The notes under the pieces were generated by a model. That model was given only the letters and a program-made list of their open reading frames with translations, ran no database searches and had not been told where the DNA came from. The position numbers and the translations under genes were made by a program. Of a stretch of 64,000 nucleotides of DNA, positions 3,341-64,000 are shown one piece after another. Source of the stretch: Lasiosphaeris hirsuta (lineage: Eukaryota > Ascomycota > Sordariomycetes > Sordariales > Lasiosphaeriaceae); assembly GCA_030549175.1 (NCBI GenBank), contig JAUKUA010000007.1:186001-250000 (forward strand). Direction: 5' to 3'. How positions within the stretch are numbered: position 1 is the stretch's first letter; the number at the start of each line of letters is the position of its first letter.

Positions 3341-6208
3341 ATGGCCATGATGGAGCTCGACGCGGACCCCCGCGACGGCGACGGCGATGGCGACGGCCAC
3401 GGCGAGGCCACGGACCCGGTGGCCGTCTGGGACGAGATCGAGGCCAACTACTGGCAGTCCATCACGGGGCTCCGGGCCAAGGAGGACCAGGACCTGGAGG
3501 CGATGCACCGCGAGCGCAACACGGCCATCGGCACCGAGCTGTTCGCCGTCGAGGAGGAGCGCCAGCGCATCCTGGAGCGGCTGGCGGGCCTCGACAAGCG
3601 CACGACCGAGCTGGCCGGCGAGCGCCAGCAGTCCGACTGGGAGCTGCAACAGGAGCGCATGCGGCGCGAGGAGCAGCGCGTGGGCGAGAACGAGGCTAAG
3701 CGCCGCTGGCTCGCCGAGCAGAAGCGCGCGGCGAGGGTCAAGGCGCAGCAGAGGGCGGCTGAGCTGGAGGGTGAGCTGGGCCGCCGCGAGGTCGTGCTCG
3801 AGGTTCGTCCCGAGGGCCCTCACCATGTCTCCCGCGAGGGGCCGAGGGAGGGTCACCAGGCTCAACAGATTCAGCATGTCCAGCAACAAGCCTATCAAGA
3901 AGCCCACCAAGTCCGGCAAGAAGTTCAGCAAGTCGAGCAAGCTCTGCAGGCTCTGCAGGCTCAGCAGGTTCAGCAGGTTCAGCAGGTTCAGCAGGTTCAT
4001 CAAGTTCAGCAAGTTCCGGAGGAGGTTCAGCAAGTTCCGCAGGTTCAGCAGGTCCACCAAGTTCAACAGGCTCAGCAAGTTCAGCAGGCTCAGCAGGTTC
4101 ATCAAGTTCAGCAAGTTCCGCAAGCTGCTCAGCAGGAACCTCCCCAAGTCCATGAACCTCAGCGGGAGATTTACCAACATACCGGCGACCAGGCTCATGA
4201 GGATGACCAGCTTATGCCAAATGCTCCTCAGAACATAAACCAGCCCTTGCCGGATACGATTCGGAACGAGACACAGCATCCGCAGGCGCAAGACCAGGCG
4301 CAAGCCGAGATGCAAGCTCATCCCGAAGCCCACGGTGCACAAGTGCCATCTACAGTCTACAACACAGTCAACAGCCAGCCAGCCAACAGCAACAACAATT
4401 CGGTCAACGAAGCAAAAGGAACCAAAGTCATTGGTGCACCAAGCGGCCATGACCTCTCCGCCCGAGACCGGTCGCCGTCCTCGTCAGAGCTCACCTCGCA
4501 ACTTTCCACCCCGCTGTCTGAACCGCAGCTGGACTTCTTCGACATGCCATCGCCGCAGCCGCTGGCACTGGGGCAGGAACAGTCTGTGCAACCCGATCCG
4601 CCAAGCAAGACTGCCAGCCCAACTAGGGACCCGTCTAATGCTGTTGAGGTCTTTGATGAGTCGGGCGCCCTCGTCGGAACCCTTCGTCGCATCAATCTCG
4701 ACAACCCCTGGGTCAACCACGTCCTGCAACTCCCTATCCGGCGCCCTGTCCAGATCCGCGCCGGGAGGAAGTTTACCTCGGAGACCCTCGAGTCTGTCTA
4801 CGAGCCCAGCGATTCCAAGGGGGCCAAGTGGATCAGCTGTCACATCCAAGCGACCGGCGAGATGCAGGCGCAGCCCTGCCAGACTTGCACCAAGTCAGCG
4901 GGTCCCTTCCAAGACTGCGTGCTTCTCGGGGGCCCCGAGTTCCCCCGCTGTGGCAACTGCGAATGGAACAGACAAGGTTGCCAGCTCCGACCAAAGTCGC
5001 GGCACGGTAGCAGTGTAGAGAGCGCCCACAGGTCGCCCAGGAAGTCTTTATACGCTGCGCCGGAGCCTAGCGTTGGGTCGGCCGCGGGTTTCACGGCGGT
5101 CAACACGGCCGCGCCCAGGGCTCCAAAGGCCGGCATCGTCGAGACTGCAGACGGCGTGCCAAAGCCGGAGATCAAAGGACCTTTTACGGCGAGGAGGACG
5201 GGCCGGAAGTCGCTCCCGGACACCCGGAAGCCGGTTGCTCTTCAGGCCCGCGACTCCATATCGGCCCTCTCGACCCCGCTCACGGGCAGCCCGGCGCCGA
5301 GCTCCGAGGTGACGAGCGAACCGCTGGACTGGTCAGAGATCAACAAGGCGAACCTCCTCTTGCGGGACGATGGGGTTGTCTTCACGGACCCCCCGTGCAT
5401 GCGCGGTGTGCCACTGGAAAAGATCAGCTCGTCACATCTGTACTGGGACCCAGACTGGCCCTCGATTGAGGCGCTTGTGGAAGCCGGCCTCAAATCGTGG
5501 AGCGACAAGTACACCTACCACATGGCGGCAAACTCATCGCAATCCAGCAAGTTCTTGGCGAATCGCCAAGTAAATAGAGGCCGGGCAATACAAAAGTTTC
5601 TGGAGGAGGGCGAGCTTCATCCATACCAGATCGTCGGCAAAGAGTACGTCAACAAGGCCTTCACCACAAACTACGACACGCTGTTCCGGCTGGTACAGAT
5701 CCTCGAGGAGCTTGCTAAGTTTAGTATCGATATCACGCCCTCACAGTGGTTGCGCCAGCGGCTGCACGAAGTGAGCATCGAGGATGGCGACGCCTTCAAC
5801 CTCGGCAAAACGGTCCACGACCTGTACCACGACCGCAAGGTGACGGCGCTCCGGACCAAGAGCGGCTTCGGCAACATCGGCCGGCCGTCGGGATACCGAC
5901 TTGACAAGAGCGCCGACGGCGCGACGCCCAAAAAGACCAAGGCGCAGAAGCGCAAGGAGATGCACGCGACCCCCAAGTCGACGCCGCAAAAGGCGGGACC
6001 GGTGCCCCCGGGACAGGCCGCTCAGCCTGCCATCCAAGCAATGCCGAACCAGCCCACTCTGGCTCCCGCTCCGGTTCCCCAGACCCAGACCCAGACCCAG
6101 ACCCAGACTCAGACCCAGGATCAGGCTCGGGCTCAGGCTCAGGCCTATCATCCATCACCGGCCGCGGCTCCCGTCCAACCCCCCCCCCCGTTGCACCAGC
6201 TGCCATGA
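3341..6208 (+). CDS. Gln-rich protein with DUF3716-like Cys motif
   Basis: Open frame of 955 aa from ATG 3341 (MAMMELDAD); the frame is open further upstream, but the Asp/Gly-rich start at 3341 is the first convincing coding sequence. Order of parts: charged coiled coil (about residues 25-150), a Gln/Val-rich repeat (about 190-265), low-complexity linker, a Cys-rich motif near residues 505-555 (CQTCTKSAGPF followed by CGNC and a further Cys) resembling the fungal DUF3716 zinc-binding-like domain, and a helical region before a Thr-Gln repeat and Pro tail. Function is unknown; a nuclear or chromatin role is possible but only inference. The frame ends just after a run of ten C, and the +2 frame then continues as a coding-like segment (next entry), so the two are probably one protein interrupted by a one-base indel. 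Confidence 0.75.
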   Translation: MAMMELDADPRDGDGDGDGHGEATDPVAVWDEIEANYWQSITGLRAKEDQDLEAMHRERNTAIGTELFAVEEERQRILERLAGLDKRTTELAGERQQSDWELQQERMRREEQRVGENEAKRRWLAEQKRAARVKAQQRAAELEGELGRREVVLEVRPEGPHHVSREGPREGHQAQQIQHVQQQAYQEAHQVRQEVQQVEQALQALQAQQVQQVQQVQQVHQVQQVPEEVQQVPQVQQVHQVQQAQQVQQAQQVHQVQQVPQAAQQEPPQVHEPQREIYQHTGDQAHEDDQLMPNAPQNINQPLPDTIRNETQHPQAQDQAQAEMQAHPEAHGAQVPSTVYNTVNSQPANSNNNSVNEAKGTKVIGAPSGHDLSARDRSPSSSELTSQLSTPLSEPQLDFFDMPSPQPLALGQEQSVQPDPPSKTASPTRDPSNAVEVFDESGALVGTLRRINLDNPWVNHVLQLPIRRPVQIRAGRKFTSETLESVYEPSDSKGAKWISCHIQATGEMQAQPCQTCTKSAGPFQDCVLLGGPEFPRCGNCEWNRQGCQLRPKSRHGSSVESAHRSPRKSLYAAPEPSVGSAAGFTAVNTAAPRAPKAGIVETADGVPKPEIKGPFTARRTGRKSLPDTRKPVALQARDSISALSTPLTGSPAPSSEVTSEPLDWSEINKANLLLRDDGVVFTDPPCMRGVPLEKISSSHLYWDPDWPSIEALVEAGLKSWSDKYTYHMAANSSQSSKFLANRQVNRGRAIQKFLEEGELHPYQIVGKEYVNKAFTTNYDTLFRLVQILEELAKFSIDITPSQWLRQRLHEVSIEDGDAFNLGKTVHDLYHDRKVTALRTKSGFGNIGRPSGYRLDKSADGATPKKTKAQKRKEMHATPKSTPQKAGPVPPGQAAQPAIQAMPNQPTLAPAPVPQTQTQTQTQTQTQDQARAQAQAYHPSPAAAPVQPPPPLHQLP
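3943..4130 (+). repeat. Coding minisatellite encoding Gln-Gln-Val repeats
   Basis: Degenerate 9-nt units of the type CAGGTTCAG repeat here and encode (Q-Q/H-V)n with inserts of PEE and QQA. It is part of the Gln-rich protein and predicts a flexible or coiled segment that varies in length between strains. Confidence 0.8.
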
Positions 6209-19129: not shown

Positions 19130-22100
19130 CTAGGACCCGAAGGCTTCTGAGCCTTCAAGCACCCCCTCTCCTCCCTCAACCATCCCTTCTCCCAAAGCCC
19201 CATCACCCACCTCCGCCACAGCCCCCATCTCCTTCAAGGCCTTCACTAACCCCTCACGAGCAGAATGGCGAAGATACGCCATCAAGACGCCGCCCTGTAC
19301 ACGATGATTCGTCACCTCCCTCTTATACTCGACGCCAGGAGGCGGTCCCGCCTCGGTCGCCTGGAGCGCCGTCCTGTACACGCCATGCCCGAGGACCAGG
19401 TTCACATCCGCGCCGCCCTCCACCAGCTTATACGCACACGCCGACTGTGCCATACACGCGGCTGCGACCAGCGGGCTCCCAAACTCGGTCTCAGAGCCGG
19501 ACTCGGGCTGCAGGTTGGGATCTGCGCCCGCGAGCAGCAGGACCTCGAGAGACCGCACGTCGCCGAACCAGGCCGCTGCCGAGAGGGCGCTCCCAAAGAA
19601 TCCCGTTCGCAGCCGCTGGTTGACGTCGGCGCCGGCTTGGATCAGTGTCTTGAGGAAGTTGGGCCGGGCTTGGCCTGCCGCCGCAGCAAGTGCGCTGCCG
19701 AAGATGCCTCCTTCGAGCGGCGCGTTGATGTCTGCCCCGGCATCGATCAGGGTCTGCACACAGATCAGGGTTTTCCCGCAGATTGCTGCTACCAGGGCGG
19801 TACCGAAATGTTCCAGCCGCATTCGGCTTTGGGGCGCGTTGACGTTGGCGCCGTTCTCGATCAAGGCCTGCAAGCAGTCGAGCTCGCCCAAGAAGGCGGC
19901 TGTAGCTAATGCGGTGCTCCCGAATTTCCGTGGCGGCAGCACTTGGTCAACGGCTGCTCCAGCCTCGATGAGGGCTACGAGACAATCATCCTTTCCTTTG
20001 AACGCAGCGGCCTGCAGTGCGCTACCATATGAACACTCTGGCCCGTAAAGCCGGTTCACATCTGCGCCAGCTTGTATGAGGGCATCAAGGCAATCTAGGT
20101 CCCCTCTCAAAGAAGCCTCGCACAATGCGCTGCCAGAGTATCCTTCCAAAAGCTTATTCACATCTGCACCAGCATCGAGAAGAACTTCCAGGCAACCCAG
20201 CTGGCCGCTGCCGGCGGCGGCCGCAAGTGCGCTCCCATATATCCCCGAAGGAGACGATTGGTTCACCTCCATGCCGGCCTTGATCAAAATCTGCAACGAC
20301 CCGGCTGCTCCACTTGCGGCCACCTCTGCCACCATCGTGTCCGGTAATTGCTCGACTTTGGCACCGCTGTCGATCAAGAACTGAACCATCGCCGGCTTTC
20401 CGCTCAAAGCCGCCCCCGACAAGGGGTTGGCGAACCTGCCGCGCACATGCTTCAGGTTCACGTCGGCACCATGGCTGAGTAATAATTTGACGATATCCAT
20501 ATGGCCGTAATAGGCAGCGGCTGCCAGCGGGCTCCCAAGGTTCCCCAAATACGTCGGACCTATCAGCGCCCCTTTGGACAGCAGGAGGCGGACCCATTCT
20601 AGGTTGCCCATTGCGGCCCCCTGTGTGAGAGCGTTGCCGTACTCAGTGTCCACCGCTCTGTTGACGTTGGCTCCGATCTCAACCAGTCTCCGGCCGATTG
20701 ACAAGCTTTCTTCTCTTCTATCTTCTACAACACCAAGTAAGGCCTTGCCATCTCTGTTGAGAAGTGTCAGATTGAGAGTGTTTCGGTCCTCCCACCAACT
20801 CTTTAGCAATCCGAAAAGTGAGAACCGACACATCGCGAAGAGCGTCTGAGTTTCGGGGGCGATGAATTGGAGCGAGGTCTGATCGAGGGGATATTGCTTG
20901 GGGGCTTGGTCAAGCCGAACTAGCTGATACCAGCCCTGATACCGGGCACTGCTGGTGGTCGGGGACCCTAGGAACTTCTTGAGCAAATGAATCAGGAGCG
21001 GGTCCGCTGTCGATCCGGCCACCTCTTCCACGGCCTTTACGTGCCTCACCCAATGGTTGCGAGCGTAGGTTTGCAGGGGGTGAGCCGTACTCCTTATCGC
21101 CACGTCAAGTGAATCACCAATATTCACTCCAGTGGAAGCATCTTCTTCCCACTTAGCCTCCAGAAGCAACGACAGACACAGCTTTGCGGCGTCGGTATGT
21201 GCTTTCAGCAAACTCCATCCGATGGTGTGGGGCTCCGAGAAATATTGAGCGACGGAGGAATGTGAAAGTCGCCAGACCTCAACACCGACTTCAACGTTGG
21301 TATCGAGAACAAGCACGGATGGCCACAGGTCTCTCAGATCTTCTTCTTCGGGGTATAGGGAAGGCTTAACACCGAGACCCTCCTCACGAGAAGCGAGACA
21401 AAATATCTCAGCAAGCTCTTGTTGAGTCAATGGTCGACACACGCAGGATACCCACATCAAGGCTGTCCTCGCATTCGTTTTGTGGTGATCAGTCATTTCC
21501 TCAAACTCGGCAGTCGCGCTGCTGTAGACTTCTGCAATGGTTACAGGGCCGGTTCCTATAGCTGCGGGTGACATTTTCATATATAATTCATGGCTCTCGC
21601 GTGCCGCAGCCTTGGCCCAAAGGAATCTAGCAGTGAAATAGGTTAGAATGGCAAGCTTCAAGCGTCTTGTCACCGGAGCTGAGGGGGTTCCAACTTACGA
21701 TCCTTCGCTTTCCCGCGTAATTTGGTTGTAAAGATTAAGGGGGACGTTTGCCCAGCTTTCCCTGATGACGCTCGCGATGTCAAAGTATGTGTGAGGTAGT
21801 GCCCCGCCCTCCTCCATTGTTTGATCTTCCTTGAGCCAATGTGGGAGCACGATGCTGTGCCTTTCCGTGGTTGATTCAATAAGACGACGTATTTCGCGAT
21901 TTTCCCGACTGGACAGGAATATTCTGACAGGATGCACTGAGAACTCAAGTACATTGCGTAGCGAGTTGGCAATGAAACCCAAAACACTCGGCTCGAGTTT
22001 GTCTAGGCCATCGAGAACCAAAGTAGTCATGTCGTGTGTGTCTATGGCTTCCAACAGCCATTCTGCCCACGAGCCGGTGGAGGGCTTAGAGACTTTGAAT

Positions 22101-58509: not shown

Positions 58510-60765
58510 TCAAAACCTCCTCACCCCCACCTCGACCTCCCCATCAACAACCCCAACCTGGCCAACCCCAACAACAAAATCCTCCTCACTGGCCTCCAGC
58601 AACCTCTCAACCTCATCATCCGTCATCCTCCCGGCCGCATCAACAATCCACCCCACCATCGGCCGACTCCCCCGGCCAGCCACCTGGCCAATAGCATGCC
58701 AATAATCGCCCTGGGCACTAAACCTCGTCTGCCTCAAGAAAACCCCCACAATCACCCCCGCGACGAGCACATCCACCAGCACCACAACCGTCGCCGCCAC
58801 GAGCCCCCTCACGCCCCGCGGGTGCAGCGCCAGCACCGACGACGCCGTGGTGGCGGCCCCGGGCACGTCGAACTGACGCAGCGCCTCGCTGACGGCGCTG
58901 GCCGCCATGGTCGTCATCAGGCTCTGCAGCGCGAGCGCCGGCCGGTTGGTGGCGGATAGCGTGTCGGCGAAGAGCGCCTGCAGCGACATGTCGGCTAGCA
59001 CCGTCTGGAAGCCGCCGGCTTTAGGCGCCATGAAGAGGGTTACGTTCTGCAGCGCGTCGGCTGACGCGAGGTACACGTGTGTGACGAGGCGGGCGGTCAG
59101 GTCCCAGGTTGTGTGGGTTTTGAGCGGGGAGGTCAGGGAGGCGATGGTGTAGATCCCCCTGGAGGAGGAGGAGGAGGAGGAGGAGGAGGAGGGGGAGGGG
59201 GAGGGGGCTGTGCCGAGGAAGGATTGGATGCTGGTCGTGTTCCAGTCGTAGGTTGATGCCGCCCAGCCTGGGATTGGGGCTTGTAGGTCGGTTGGTGTGG
59301 TGAGGTGGGCGGTGACAAAGTCGAAGTCGATTTGTTGGAAGCAGAGCGAGAGTTCGATGGCGACCGAGTGGTTGAGGGCGGAGTATATCTTCCACTCGGC
59401 TTCGTTGGAGACATGAGACTCCGGAATGGGGCTGGTTCCAGGCATGGTAAAGTCCACATTCGTGGTGTTGCTTCTGATAATGAGCAGGATCTCGGACCGG
59501 TTAGACAACGGGCGGTCGTTGATGGCCCACGACGGGTATGGAGAGTAGGCGTTGCTGCCATCGGGCAGACACAGCGCCGTGGGAATACCGTAGGCAGCTT
59601 TCTCGACCCATGGAAGCGAGCAGTTAAAGGCAGACGACCCAGCAAAGCAGCTCCCGCCGTCGCAATCAGGCGGAAATTCCAGCCCGGCGTCTGCCAGTGT
59701 GCCGGCTATGTCAATGCCGGCCGAGATGAAATATCCATTCGCGTCCGACACTTCCTTTGGCCCTGGCACTAAGGTGATATGCGGCTTCTCTAGCACCGGC
59801 GGCACACACACGAATCGACTGTTCATGGCATAGGCCTTTCCCTCGTATGAGCGCAGCGAGGTGCGGTTCGTCTCTTTGACAGGCACAAAAACACGCTGCA
59901 TGATGCCCGTGTCGCTGAGCCCCTTTTCGTTGGGCAGCGGGCTGATGGCCGACACATTGTTCTCGCCAAAAGGGGCATATGTCGGCTGGCGGCTGAAGGT
60001 GTTGTGCGGGTAGATGCTCCCCGAGAAACTGTTCGACATCTCGAGCATCAGGATCTCATTGACCGGGTCGCCAACCAGCAGGTCCAACTGGAGGTCGGTG
60101 ACCAGCATCGTAGACAAAAACTGCGTCGCAATGTCGCCAAAAACGAGGATCGTGATCAGGAGGGTTGGAAAGATGGACGCTTTCGAGAAGGCATTGGTGA
60201 TGAGCACCCACGACAGCCGGTACGGCCCGTCATTTATGCTGCGGAAGATGGACACCTCGGCAAGCTTGGAGAGGGGTATCCCATGGCGCTCGAGGATGAC
60301 GGCGGCCACCAGACTCGTGCAGATTGTCGCCTGTCCCACGATGATGAAGCGGATCACGACCGTCGAGAGGGTGATGGCCTGCGTGATGCGTTCCCCGATG
60401 ACGAACCAGCGCCAGGAGGCCGACGCTCGCTCACTGCCCCCGTGGCCCTCGCCGGTCCACAGGAATATGAGAAAGCCGAGAACGCCGAAGACGACAAGCG
60501 ATCCGAGCAGGATGGTGACAGAACCAAGGATTCCAAGCGCCGCGCGTAGTGACCGAAACCCGTTGTTGGGACGCGGCCCCAGGCTGGTGCTTGTTGCCGA
60601 GCGCGATATCTCCCGGATCGTGGGGCTCGGTTTTATCGGGCCATATTCCTTTGTTTCCTCGAACTCGAGCACTTTCTTCTCGGGGTCGCGTTCGATCAGC
60701 TCGTTGTCCTTCTTCTCCCCTACGTTCGTCGAAGGCGAATCGGGATCTGATGTGGTGGCCATCAT
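58510..60765 (-). CDS. Large fungal membrane protein of unknown function
   Basis: Uninterrupted frame of 751 aa from ATG 60765 (MMATTSDPDSP); the next ATG is one codon on. A charged cytoplasmic N-terminus precedes three membrane helices (about residues 75-105, 135-160 and 200-225, for example LLGSLVVFGVLGFLIFLW). A long N-glycosylation-rich outer domain follows (about 230-655), with Cys pairs (DCDGGSCF, NCSLP) and a poly-Ser run from a GGA repeat (59160-59190). One C-terminal helix (LVAATVVVLVDVLVAGVIVG) leads to a short tail. The plan of three helices, a large ectodomain and a last helix is common in uncharacterised sordariomycete proteins. No known domain was recognised. Confidence 0.8.
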   Translation of the reverse strand: MMATTSDPDSPSTNVGEKKDNELIERDPEKKVLEFEETKEYGPIKPSPTIREISRSATSTSLGPRPNNGFRSLRAALGILGSVTILLGSLVVFGVLGFLIFLWTGEGHGGSERASASWRWFVIGERITQAITLSTVVIRFIIVGQATICTSLVAAVILERHGIPLSKLAEVSIFRSINDGPYRLSWVLITNAFSKASIFPTLLITILVFGDIATQFLSTMLVTDLQLDLLVGDPVNEILMLEMSNSFSGSIYPHNTFSRQPTYAPFGENNVSAISPLPNEKGLSDTGIMQRVFVPVKETNRTSLRSYEGKAYAMNSRFVCVPPVLEKPHITLVPGPKEVSDANGYFISAGIDIAGTLADAGLEFPPDCDGGSCFAGSSAFNCSLPWVEKAAYGIPTALCLPDGSNAYSPYPSWAINDRPLSNRSEILLIIRSNTTNVDFTMPGTSPIPESHVSNEAEWKIYSALNHSVAIELSLCFQQIDFDFVTAHLTTPTDLQAPIPGWAASTYDWNTTSIQSFLGTAPSPSPSSSSSSSSSSRGIYTIASLTSPLKTHTTWDLTARLVTHVYLASADALQNVTLFMAPKAGGFQTVLADMSLQALFADTLSATNRPALALQSLMTTMAASAVSEALRQFDVPGAATTASSVLALHPRGVRGLVAATVVVLVDVLVAGVIVGVFLRQTRFSAQGDYWHAIGQVAGRGSRPMVGWIVDAAGRMTDDEVERLLEASEEDFVVGVGQVGVVDGEVEVGVRRF

Positions 60766-61945
60766 GAGCCCTCTCAAAGTAGCTTAGCAAAGGCTCCGAG
60801 GGAAGATGGTCTTGATACGGTGCCTGGTCACATCTCCGCTCTTGAGCAGGGGTAGGAATTGTTATACTGTTTTCTTGCCCAAACCGCTGTGGCCTGGTTA
60901 CACAAACCCCCACGGGACCTCCTGAATTTCTAGGTAGCGATGGCTGTCAATACGCAGGATGCATCTTAGCCTTGGAATGTCTATATTGAACATGAACAAA
61001 GTGCGGCAGACGTGGTGGCAATACAGGGCGGTGTGACTGGCTAATTATACCACCAACCCATTCGCCGGTAAATCCGGCGCCGAGCGCGCTCCCAGACCTG
61101 AAGCTCTACGAATGGCGCACCAGGAGGATCGATCAGATGCTGGAATGCAGTTGCCTTCGGCCAGTCAGGCAACCCAAATACCGGCTTTGTGACCCGAATC
61201 GATGAGTAGTTGGAGTCTTAATAACCTGCCGTCGGATTGAAGCGTAGCGAAGTGGCACAGCCGGTGTTTGACATGCCCAAAAGGACTAGATCCTTCAGCA
61301 GATTAATTTTTGGCGGATAAATGAGCCACTATGACAAGTACTTTTGCTGGTGGCACGTAGCAGAAGGCCACAGCGAATATTAACCACGCAGGGCATTGTT
61401 CGCGTCGCGCTACTTGCCAATGACTGGCATAGTGGGTGGTCTTGTGCTATACCACTAGCAAAGGCTCCGTCTTGACCCGGAGCTGGAACTGTCTATCAAA
61501 GTCCTGGGTAAATCCCGCGAGCAATGGGTCGTGTGCATTATCAGCACCCTCATGTCAATTTATCAGTCGGTATCACCAAGTTAGAAGCGCTGAGAGCTCA
61601 GGCAACTAATTAGGACTTGGAGTGCTGGTATTTTCTAGGGCCGTGTAGCAGGCCTGGTCATCAGTTACTTCCCTGAACCTAGGCACCTAGCTTTTAAAAA
61701 AGTTATAGAGCCTTCCTTATAGTTGTAATCGAATATGTGGCAGTAATCACAGAACAACGGACGGTCCTGGCGACGAGACAAGCTTTGATGACATGGAGAG
61801 GGCCGAAGATGAACCCCAAGTTGCTGCGCTTTTGAATAGAATGATCACTGCCCTCACAACCACATCAGCTTTGGTACCGTTGCATGTGGTGATTGTTGCC
61901 ACCGAAAAGAGAACCTGCCCTATCGTATCCTTCCCAGCATCACAC
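60766..61945. other. Intergenic region, 1.2 kb
   Basis: Promoter of the membrane-protein gene and 3' flank of the HET gene; no gene was recognised. Confidence 0.45.
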
Positions 61946-64000
61946 CTAGACAAATATCGCATCCCCATCTTTTCGCAATACGTAATTCCTGTGGATCATC
62001 CCGGTCCCAAGCCTTTCATACTCGCCTCCTGCCGTCCGTCTTACCACCAGCAGGTACAAATCCTGACTCTCGTGCTTCGCCCCCAAAATGATGGCCCACT
62101 CTAGGCAAAGGGTGCTATAATCTTCAACATCATACATCACACAGCCCCTGAGCTCCCCGGAGGAATCCAATATCTGGTGGCGTATTCCTGTGGAATCTGC
62201 TCCCAAGTCCTTTTGTAAACGGCAATTCCGAAACTCCCATACATTGGTGACCAAGGCCCTCCCGTCTCTCGTGAACTGGAGATTGCGAAACTTGTCCCAT
62301 TCCCCATAGCGAATTTGGTGGAACTGGATGCCTCCCTTATATCTCATCCATGACCATGACGGTACTTCACTGTTTTCGTCAACCGTGTTCTCCTTTCTCG
62401 GGATCGTCCAATGCCAAATGAGAGTTCGGTGAAGGAACTTCTCGAGGATGCCGTAGCTTTGTTTACACTCGAAAACTGAACCAATACGAGCCAAAAGCCC
62501 AGATAATGCAACAGCTCTATCGGCTGGGACTGAGAGCTCGCGGGTGGAGTATGTCTCGAAGAGAGACTGTAGGAACTTGATAACATTGTTGAAATAGTCA
62601 CTGCCCAGACGACTTGGGAAATTTGGATCGAGGTCGATGAACTTCTCGGAACCTACGATGCTAAAGAGTAGGGAATATTTAAATTAAAGGACATTCATGT
62701 GAAAAAGTATTGGGTTCTTACCTCTTCATTTGGGTATAATCCTCACCGTATATCCCAAAGCCACATTCGAAATACATGCGATAAGAGCTGAAATGAACGG
62801 TTCGACGGGATAGGTATCTTTCTTGCAACACCCATGCCCGCTGATTAAGTGGACCATTATCCACTTCTTGAGCGAAATTTACTGCCCTAGTATGGAGGTA
62901 AGCTTGTGAATTTGGGCTTTCGTTGTCAGAAACATACCGTGGCACGTTTTGGTTATCTCTGTGAGTCTCATCTTCGTCACGTCCGAGAAACCCCGCCTCC
63001 GAGCTGACAGCCGATGTCGCAGCGATTGTGCAGTACGCCCCAGCGTAGACGGCTTCCATACGCCCAGACTCTGTCGCCCAGTCCCCCCCACTCCCTTGGA
63101 TGATGCAAAGAGAATCAATCCAGAGGTAACGTATATCAAGACCCTGAGACACTTTGATAGCGTCCTGGAATGTCAATGGTAAGCTTCCAACACAAAACCC
63201 ACGTCCCTCCTTGCGGGAGTCAATATTTTGTGTAGTTGTGCAATGCTGCGGTATCTTGCCGGGCGCAAGCTTGCCCCAACAATGGGATAAAGCGATGTAT
63301 CGCCGAGAGGAAACTTTCTGACTGAAAACTTCCTGATTGGAAACAAGCCTCAAAGCGTCTGGGTTGCCTATATCGAGAACTCTTGTCGGGAAATTTCCTT
63401 CAAGCGCTCTGGGACGCTGGCAACATGTATGGGCATCGCATTGCTGGAGCCAGGCACGAAGCAGTGAAAAACGTAAAGGACTCGTTGGAGAGGAAGTTGA
63501 AGCTGAAGCTGCAGGTAGGTTCTTCGAAAATTGAAGTCGGAAGCTTTCTTCCACAACTTGAAAAAAATCCTGATCTCTGAGTTAGCAAAGGCCACACAGC
63601 CCTGACATCCAGGGCTACTTACTCTCTATACCAACACACACAACAGGGTCAGCAAAGGCCACATAGGAACTGATATCCAGGGCTACTTACTTCCTATACC
63701 AACACACACAACAGGGTCAGCAAAGGCCACATAGGAACTGATATCCAGGGCTACTTACGAACTATACCAACACACACAACAGGGTCAGCAAAGGCCACAT
63801 AGGAACTGATATCCAGGGCTACTTACGAACTATACCAACACACACAACAGGGTCAGCAAAGGCCACATAGGAACTGATATCCAGGGCTACTTACTCTCTA
63901 TACCAACACACACAACAGGGTCAGCAAAGGCCACATAGGAACTGATATCCAGGGCTACTTACGAACTATACCAACACACACAACAGGGTCAGCAAAGGCC
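61946..64000 (-). CDS. HET-domain protein, 5' end beyond the window
   Basis: Minus-strand exons 62722-63576 and 61946-62660 encode at least 523 aa; the 61-nt intron has GTAAGA and TTTAG ends. The HET domain (heterokaryon incompatibility) is shown by RRYIALSHCWGK, FQDAIKVSQGLDIRYLWIDS followed by LCIIQG, YCTIAATSA and LNQRAWVLQERYLSRRT. HET domains are TIR-like cell-death domains of fungal non-self recognition. There is no start Met: the frame opens with GATCAGGAT after a CTAACTCAG acceptor at 63577. Upstream in the gene lies the 68-bp array, whose six visible 3-nt pieces (63963-63965, 63895-63897, 63827-63829, 63759-63761, 63691-63693, 63623-63625) could be microexons; all joins stay in frame without a stop. 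The true N-terminus is outside the window. Confidence 0.85.
63577..64000 (-). repeat. 68-bp tandem array, each unit an intron plus a 3-nt variable piece
   Basis: Units start every 68 bases (AGCAAAGGCC at 63651, 63719, 63787, 63855, 63923, 63991); a diverged first unit begins at 63584, and the array runs off the window. The complete units from 63651 on are identical except for three bases. On the minus strand each unit reads GTAAGTAGCC..., TGCTGACCC, ...GTTGGTATAG, a perfect 65-nt fungal intron. The variable bases, read 5' to 3' of the gene, are TTC, AGA, TTC, TTC, GAA, AGA and lie exactly between TATAG and GTAAGT. The last intron, next to the HET exon, is shorter (63577-63622, 46 nt, CTAACTCAG end). 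It is not a CRISPR (unit longer than a spacer plan, no unique spacers). Confidence 0.9.

Follow-up and report, generated by a model that had tools for sequence, protein, structure and literature searches.

Directly 5' of a HET-domain gene of Lasiosphaeris hirsuta (Sordariales) lies a 68-bp tandem array whose units each resemble a short intron joined to three further bases. The question raised by this locus is whether these bases are translated, one codon at a time, or whether the array is repetitive DNA inside a single intron. The window that we analysed is a 64,000-nt stretch (C12:186001-250000, C12 being the contig) of the 44.4-Mb, 14-contig assembly of this fungus. From the organisation of the sequence, and with a probability of roughly 80%, we favour the reading that the array is a working series of single-codon exons that make up the 5' part of the HET gene's coding sequence.

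Organisation of the array in the window

The array was located by TRF at window positions 63584-64000 on the minus strand. The features of the array and of the HET gene are as follows, with the basis of each given in brackets.

61946..62660, minus strand: last exon of the HET gene, ending ...DGDAIFV stop (sequence, P0025)
62661..62721, minus strand: ordinary intron of the HET gene (sequence; same splicing in P0025)
62722..63569, minus strand: HET exon (DFFQVVEESF...), Pfam HET PF06985 (sequence, Pfam)
63570..63622, minus strand: putative diverged terminal intron, donor GTAAGT, branch TGCTAAC, acceptor GATCAG (read by eye)
63623..63625, minus strand: microexon AGA (Arg) (sequence)
63626..63690, minus strand: 65-nt array intron (sequence, chain search)
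63691..63693, minus strand: microexon GAA (Glu) (sequence)
63694..63758, minus strand: 65-nt array intron, folding z 0.15 against shuffles, no better than these (sequence, chain search, folding)
63759..63761, minus strand: microexon TTC (Phe) (sequence)
63762..63826, minus strand: 65-nt array intron (sequence, chain search)
63827..63829, minus strand: microexon TTC (Phe) (sequence)
63830..63894, minus strand: 65-nt array intron (sequence, chain search)
63895..63897, minus strand: microexon AGA (Arg) (sequence)
63898..63962, minus strand: 65-nt array intron GTAAGT...TGCTGAC...GTATAG (sequence, chain search)
63963..63965, minus strand: microexon TTC (Phe) (sequence)
63966..64000, minus strand: array intron truncated by the window end, 3' part present (sequence)

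The HET domain of the window gene matched PF06985 at 105.7 bits (gathering score 22.5). It was the sole Pfam domain found, with no NACHT or ankyrin match, in searches with each of the two exons and with the joined protein minus its C-terminal end. The deposited HET protein of C12 (P0025) is marked partial.

Our reading of the minus strand returned the same six triplets as a first-pass annotation of this DNA (TTC, AGA, TTC, TTC, GAA, AGA). That annotation had also counted six 68-bp repeat units; both TRF and the genome bear out the array, but its most 3' unit (63570-63622) is no repeat copy and reads as a diverged terminal intron. The acceptor GATCAG of this intron was picked by eye for a phase-0 join, which the nearby TCAG and CAAG do not give. 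The window holds the last six codons of the array, which extends past the window end to ~C12:250781. At full length, as the first-pass annotation had proposed to read it, the array comprises 18 triplets (translated as FERGGGFFLGLRFRFFER) and 17 complete introns in the genome assembly. Each intron is 65 nt long, and 16/17 are identical; the remaining one has GTGAGT instead of GTAAGT. The GTAAGT, TGCTGAC and TATAG elements first noticed within the window are intact as donor GT(A/G)AGT, branch site TGCTGAC and acceptor GTATAG in all 17 units.

Related arrays on two other contigs

A DNA search of the genome with 200 bp of the array as query led to two further array loci, on C7 and C2, both situated 5' of HET domains (C7:3367454-3367888 and C2:442112-442564). 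The C7 array has 35 triplets (37 with two diverged GAG triplets that precede them) in a chain of 38 introns, which are 65 or 67 nt long except for the first ones. The C2 array has 15 triplets (14 under a narrower pattern) and introns of 65-67 nt. Introns of the three arrays agree at GTAAGT, in the branch region and at their end (GTGTGTG..TGGTATAG), and the sequence between these parts differs. The triplets translate as DRLRFFDNLNNLNFYFFDDNLFFYDWDRFYDDNYN on C7 and RTRRLRRLAALRPRR on C2, the codon sets being acidic-aromatic and arginine-rich, respectively. Net charges of the segments, with the 5' codons that we added included, are +1 (C12), -7 (C7) and +7 (C2). The C2 HET gene also has, at its stop codon, a tandem repeat with a 17-bp unit (7.1 copies with 100% matches; L011:7434-7554, plus strand).

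Variation in all three arrays is concentrated in the triplets. On C12, 3/3 exon columns segregate versus 1/65 intron columns, which agrees with the confinement of variation to the triplets claimed from the window; the corresponding counts are 3/3 and 3/67 on C7, and 3/3 and 10/67 on C2. The probability that the variable columns would by chance include every exon column is 8e-5 for C12, 3.7e-4 for C7 and 5.2e-3 for C2, and pairwise diversity (exon/intron) is 0.637/0.0018, 0.565/0.0107 and 0.531/0.0366, respectively. A non-coding minisatellite, for which scattered variation is expected, was rejected on these column counts. With regard to selection, one of 14 one-step codon changes was synonymous as against 25% expected (P 0.10); the changes are not significantly non-synonymous, and the comparison of synonymous with non-synonymous steps was dropped as proof of positive selection.

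Splice signals (GTAAGT or GTGAGT, a CT(A/G)A(C/T) branch site and GT(A/G)TAG) are intact in 66/66 complete units (17, 35 and 14 on C12, C7 and C2). These signals, kept in three arrays with differing introns, argue together with the concentration of variation against an alternative already named in the first-pass annotation, one long intron with dead nested splice sites. In the form considered here, the array would be a minisatellite within the first intron, and exon 1 would be spliced directly to the HET exon. Such an arrangement would be consistent with the deposited models P0001 and P0025, which omit the arrays, and with some homologue models that join the flanks with few residues between them (P0121, WIHDDFETLWTRS); moreover, both flanks are readable in phase 0, so that skipping the array keeps the frame. 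Nonetheless, P0003 (from a 2.5-kb contig) has 67 residues between the EESFF and DDW motifs, at the place of the C2 array, and one-codon exons of the paralogue L037 spell a homologous peptide (see below). The source of P0003, 'lgn', we take to be assembled sequence-archive data, so that the contig is possibly a transcript. One long intron fits less well than spliced microexons and is, in our estimation, unlikely.

Chains of splice sites were also sought by pattern: introns of 46-125 nt with a GTRNG donor and a YTRAY branch motif a short way upstream of AG, joined by exons 3 or 6 nt long. This search returned 38 introns on C7, 19 on C12, 15 on C2 and seven at L037. The controls were the other 23 fetched loci, with at most two introns on either strand, and six order-1 shuffles per locus (of the loci, the window itself not being shuffled), with at most three. 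L036, L038 and L039 gave no chain in this search. Chains of at least seven introns were found at 4/26 HET loci whose 5' stretches were examined, a fraction that gives no frequency estimate because we chose the loci ourselves. The 26 loci comprise the three arrays, 19 loci that were high-scoring, many with short open frames, and four near paralogues whose 5' stretches were fetched after a search with the C2 protein (ranks 4, 6, 7 and 8); L016, the site of the C13 relic described below, is not counted among them. The HET family of L. hirsuta is very large, with 380 candidate places, 150 of which were scored and listed, each over the Pfam cut-off.

The relatedness of the three arrays' introns (shared GTAAGT, GTGTGTG and TGGTATAG) would also be expected if an introner-like or stwintron-type mobile intron had inserted repeatedly at 3-nt steps, a possibility that the first-pass annotation had raised together with a genome search for further copies of the 65-nt intron. 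Our DNA searches returned the related arrays on C7 and C2 and one relic on C13, and no copies elsewhere, these counts being lower bounds. The relic, a C7-type unit at C13:575419-575492 (L016:4419-4492, minus strand), reads TATAG-CGG-GTAAGTGCC..., after which come TATAAC, a decayed acceptor, and a further GTAAGT. We identified no HET gene next to the relic, which is in line with a mobile element. Introner-like elements have unusually stable secondary structure, whereas the array introns fold no better than shuffles (z 0.15 for C12, 1.06 for C7 and 0.10 for C2). Tandem duplication, moreover, accounts for identical head-to-tail units. Repeated insertion as the origin of the arrays therefore appears improbable.

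Reading frame and flanking exons

The joined triplets are free of stops at offset 0 in all three arrays, and offset 1 gives stops in C12 and C7. The first-pass annotation had pointed to this stop-free frame, but offset 2 is likewise stop-free in all three arrays, which makes the argument weak, and we rejected it as proof. It is the flanks, and not stop counting, that suggest the phase. The C7 chain runs from immediately behind an ATG exon, MASTAAQGFGWIHDDFK, to ISWTRNIAVEF, with phase 0 on both sides; this ATG exon matches MASTAAQGFDWIHDDFE of Lasiosphaeria hispida P0121. On C12 and C7, the stretch from the last acceptor to halfway through the HET domain contains no Met.

The other two genes can be read similarly. 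On C12, exon 1 would be MDRDLFE, beyond the window, followed by S-E-F..., and the first exons of C2 would be MEEDSF-W-E-R.... For both genes, we selected exon 1 and the last acceptor by eye so as to obtain phase 0; the automatic search began or ended elsewhere. The third intron of C12 requires a weak donor (GTTCGT), and the first donor (GTACTA) lies outside all patterns used.

Read in this way, each 68-bp unit would consist of one working 65-nt intron and one codon. The spliceosome would take out ~21 short introns in series, and the triplets, joined in phase 0, would link the short ATG exon (MDRDLFE, as proposed above) to the HET exon (DFFQVVEESF...). The resulting N-terminal segment, S-E-FERGGGFFLGLRFRFFER, would be variable. 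Gain or loss of tandem units would change this segment by whole residues with the frame kept, a mutation in a triplet would change one residue, and the introns would be held alike by unit turnover and by selection on splice signals. The C7 and C2 HET genes would have the same build with other introns and codon sets.

Compatible with such a series of single-codon exons is frequent exon skipping, by which one gene would give N-terminal isoforms differing by single residues, as is reported for the NACHT-ANK genes of Tuber. The near-identical donors and acceptors, with all skips in frame, are consistent with this, as is the alternative splicing of codon-sized microexons in Tuber melanosporum cited in excerpts of three papers (given below). 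Alternative splicing affects ~6% of fungal genes, according to an excerpt of PMC11121469, which argues against frequent skipping, and we offer it as a tentative addition.

A paralogue with probable codon-sized exons and unlike introns

L037 is a kinase-HET gene (C7:1400700-1403700, minus strand) in which introns interrupt 24 nt of coding sequence at almost every codon. The exons GAT, GAA, TAT, CGT, AAC, GCT and GTACAG, with unlike introns between them, spell D-E-Y-R-N-A-VQ and then VDKTEFPVDNKFA; they sit between ...MGAITRR and VDKTEFPVDNKFAG, in phase 0 on both sides. For this chain of seven introns, 0/3000 shuffles gave more than three. The intron that precedes GCT (the A codon) is without a branch motif, and this exon, skipped by the chain search, was read by eye.

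Two homologues encode DEYRNATQ and DEYRNAAQ at the place of the L037 microexons. Among the 83 proteins listed by a search with the L037 product, EYRNA is present in four: P0220 (DEYRNATQIDKTEFPVDNKFA; longer stretch KDEYRNATQIDKTEFPVDNKFA), P0221 of Stipitochalara longipes, Leotiomycetes (DEYRNAAQIDKTNFPVDNKFA; longer stretch KDEYRNAAQIDKTNFPVDNKFA), P0223 (SEYRNAENID) and P0224 (NEYRNAANID). The other 79 lack it, among them P0225, a Leotiomycete protein, and six annotated homologues (P0215-P0219 and P0222), so that few homologues share the peptide. The lack of DEYRNA in these six fits models that overlook microexons and, equally, true absence. Because of an apparent read-through of a downstream intron, the P0220 contig is probably genomic, and the peptide would there lie in one open frame. 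In the C8 paralogue L036, the region of the L037 microexons is one exon.

It is very likely that the codon-sized exons of L037 are coding, since otherwise it would be hard to explain why eight residues agree with homologues and stand in register with the conserved flank. This peptide comparison concerns a paralogue with unlike introns and not a repeat array; by analogy, the C12 array is most likely spliced in the same way, with each unit providing one residue of a hypervariable N-terminal segment. The first-pass proposal of spliced introns with one-codon exons has gained most from this agreement, and further from the two additional HET arrays with the same architecture and different introns, and from the ATG exon that stands in phase 0 before the C7 array (MASTAAQGFGWIHDDFK, 37 codons, ISWTRN). 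Introner-type invasion may be the origin of the L037 chain. L037 also lends itself to studying how coding sequence left uninterrupted in one relative comes to be divided by introns at almost every codon.

Distribution among homologues

Arrays outside L. hirsuta were traced through read-through in proteins. A translated array intron was present at the N-terminus of 18/214 listed homologues, as judged by motifs of our own choice. In P0153 (Fusarium falciforme, Hypocreales), nine motif copies are read through, 22-25 residues apart; by back-translation, 7/8 spacings (24 or 25) would fit exons of 3 or 6 nt, and one (22) is irregular. AAANA.VLGGV-like repeats were found in P0029 and P0031 (Phaeosphaeriaceae, Dothideomycetes) and in P0024. 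This read-through suggests a wide spread of the arrays, from Fusarium to Dothideomycetes.

Comparison with known systems

The micro-exon genes of Schistosoma contain strings of small symmetric exons and give variable proteins; they are animal genes with longer microexons and unlike introns, in contrast to the L. hirsuta arrays. Schistosome microexons are mentioned in an excerpt of PMC11121469, which also claims that functional microexons were previously undescribed in filamentous fungi. Codon-sized microexons have been reported in the NACHT-ANK genes of Tuber melanosporum, where tens of 3-bp microexons are alternatively spliced (Iotti et al. 2012, cited in excerpts of PMC3689799, PMC4986451 and PMC10197012). 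As far as these excerpts describe the Tuber genes, the HET-gene array is a variant of that system: both involve tens of such exons, a fungal family linked to non-self recognition and a proposed diversification. In L. hirsuta, the sequence gives 18, 35 (37) and 15 triplets, with splicing predicted. The window gene differs from the Tuber genes as excerpted in its domains (HET, with neither NACHT nor ankyrin found by Pfam), in the N-terminal position of its array, in its introns, which are near-identical tandem units, and in its host, a member of the class Sordariomycetes. In the titles and abstract openings of the open-access papers that our searches listed, we found no description of codon-sized exons in HET-domain genes or of arrays of near-identical introns with one-codon exons.

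Introner-like elements and the sister stwintrons of ascomycetes are, in excerpts of PMC4457414 and PMC8469720, likewise near-identical spliceosomal introns in many copies. They are dispersed in unrelated genes, whereas the L. hirsuta introns stand head-to-tail in one gene.

The gene class, the concentration of variation and the Tuber precedent make it plausible, by analogy, that the arrays diversify a recognition protein, with a role in non-self recognition or as a death effector. In the WD40, ANK and TPR repeats of fungal NLRs, the repeats are kept alike, few positions vary and unit shuffling alters the recognition surface, with concerted evolution and positive selection described for these domains (PMC4986451, in excerpt). 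The L. hirsuta repeat differs in being an intron plus one codon, so that the homogenised DNA would stay out of the protein. It is possible, although we advance this with reserve, that in a class of Pezizomycotina HET genes tandem intron-codon cassettes act as a mutable code, in which gain, loss and shuffling of units in the DNA, and perhaps exon skipping in the RNA, generate new N-terminal recognition segments residue by residue. The arrays would then be a spliceosome-dependent counterpart of the hypervariable NLR repeats, and would have escaped notice since 3-nt exons are not modelled by gene finders.

If the arrays are spliced as proposed, a group of fungal HET proteins would have N-termini that are hypervariable and, across several ascomycete classes, mis-annotated. 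How a spliceosome copes with 38 introns in a row, separated by 3-nt exons, could be studied in the C7 gene as a natural test case, and the arrays would provide a molecular basis for non-self specificity that can be compared between strains.

Other features of the window

Downstream of the HET gene, a 757-aa open frame without a Pfam match occupies window positions 58510-60783 on the minus strand. An 854-aa open frame with many ankyrin repeats lies at 19133-21694, also on the minus strand. A further tandem repeat, with a 9-bp unit in ~22 copies, is found at 3923-4122 within a 1014-aa open frame that carries DUF3716.
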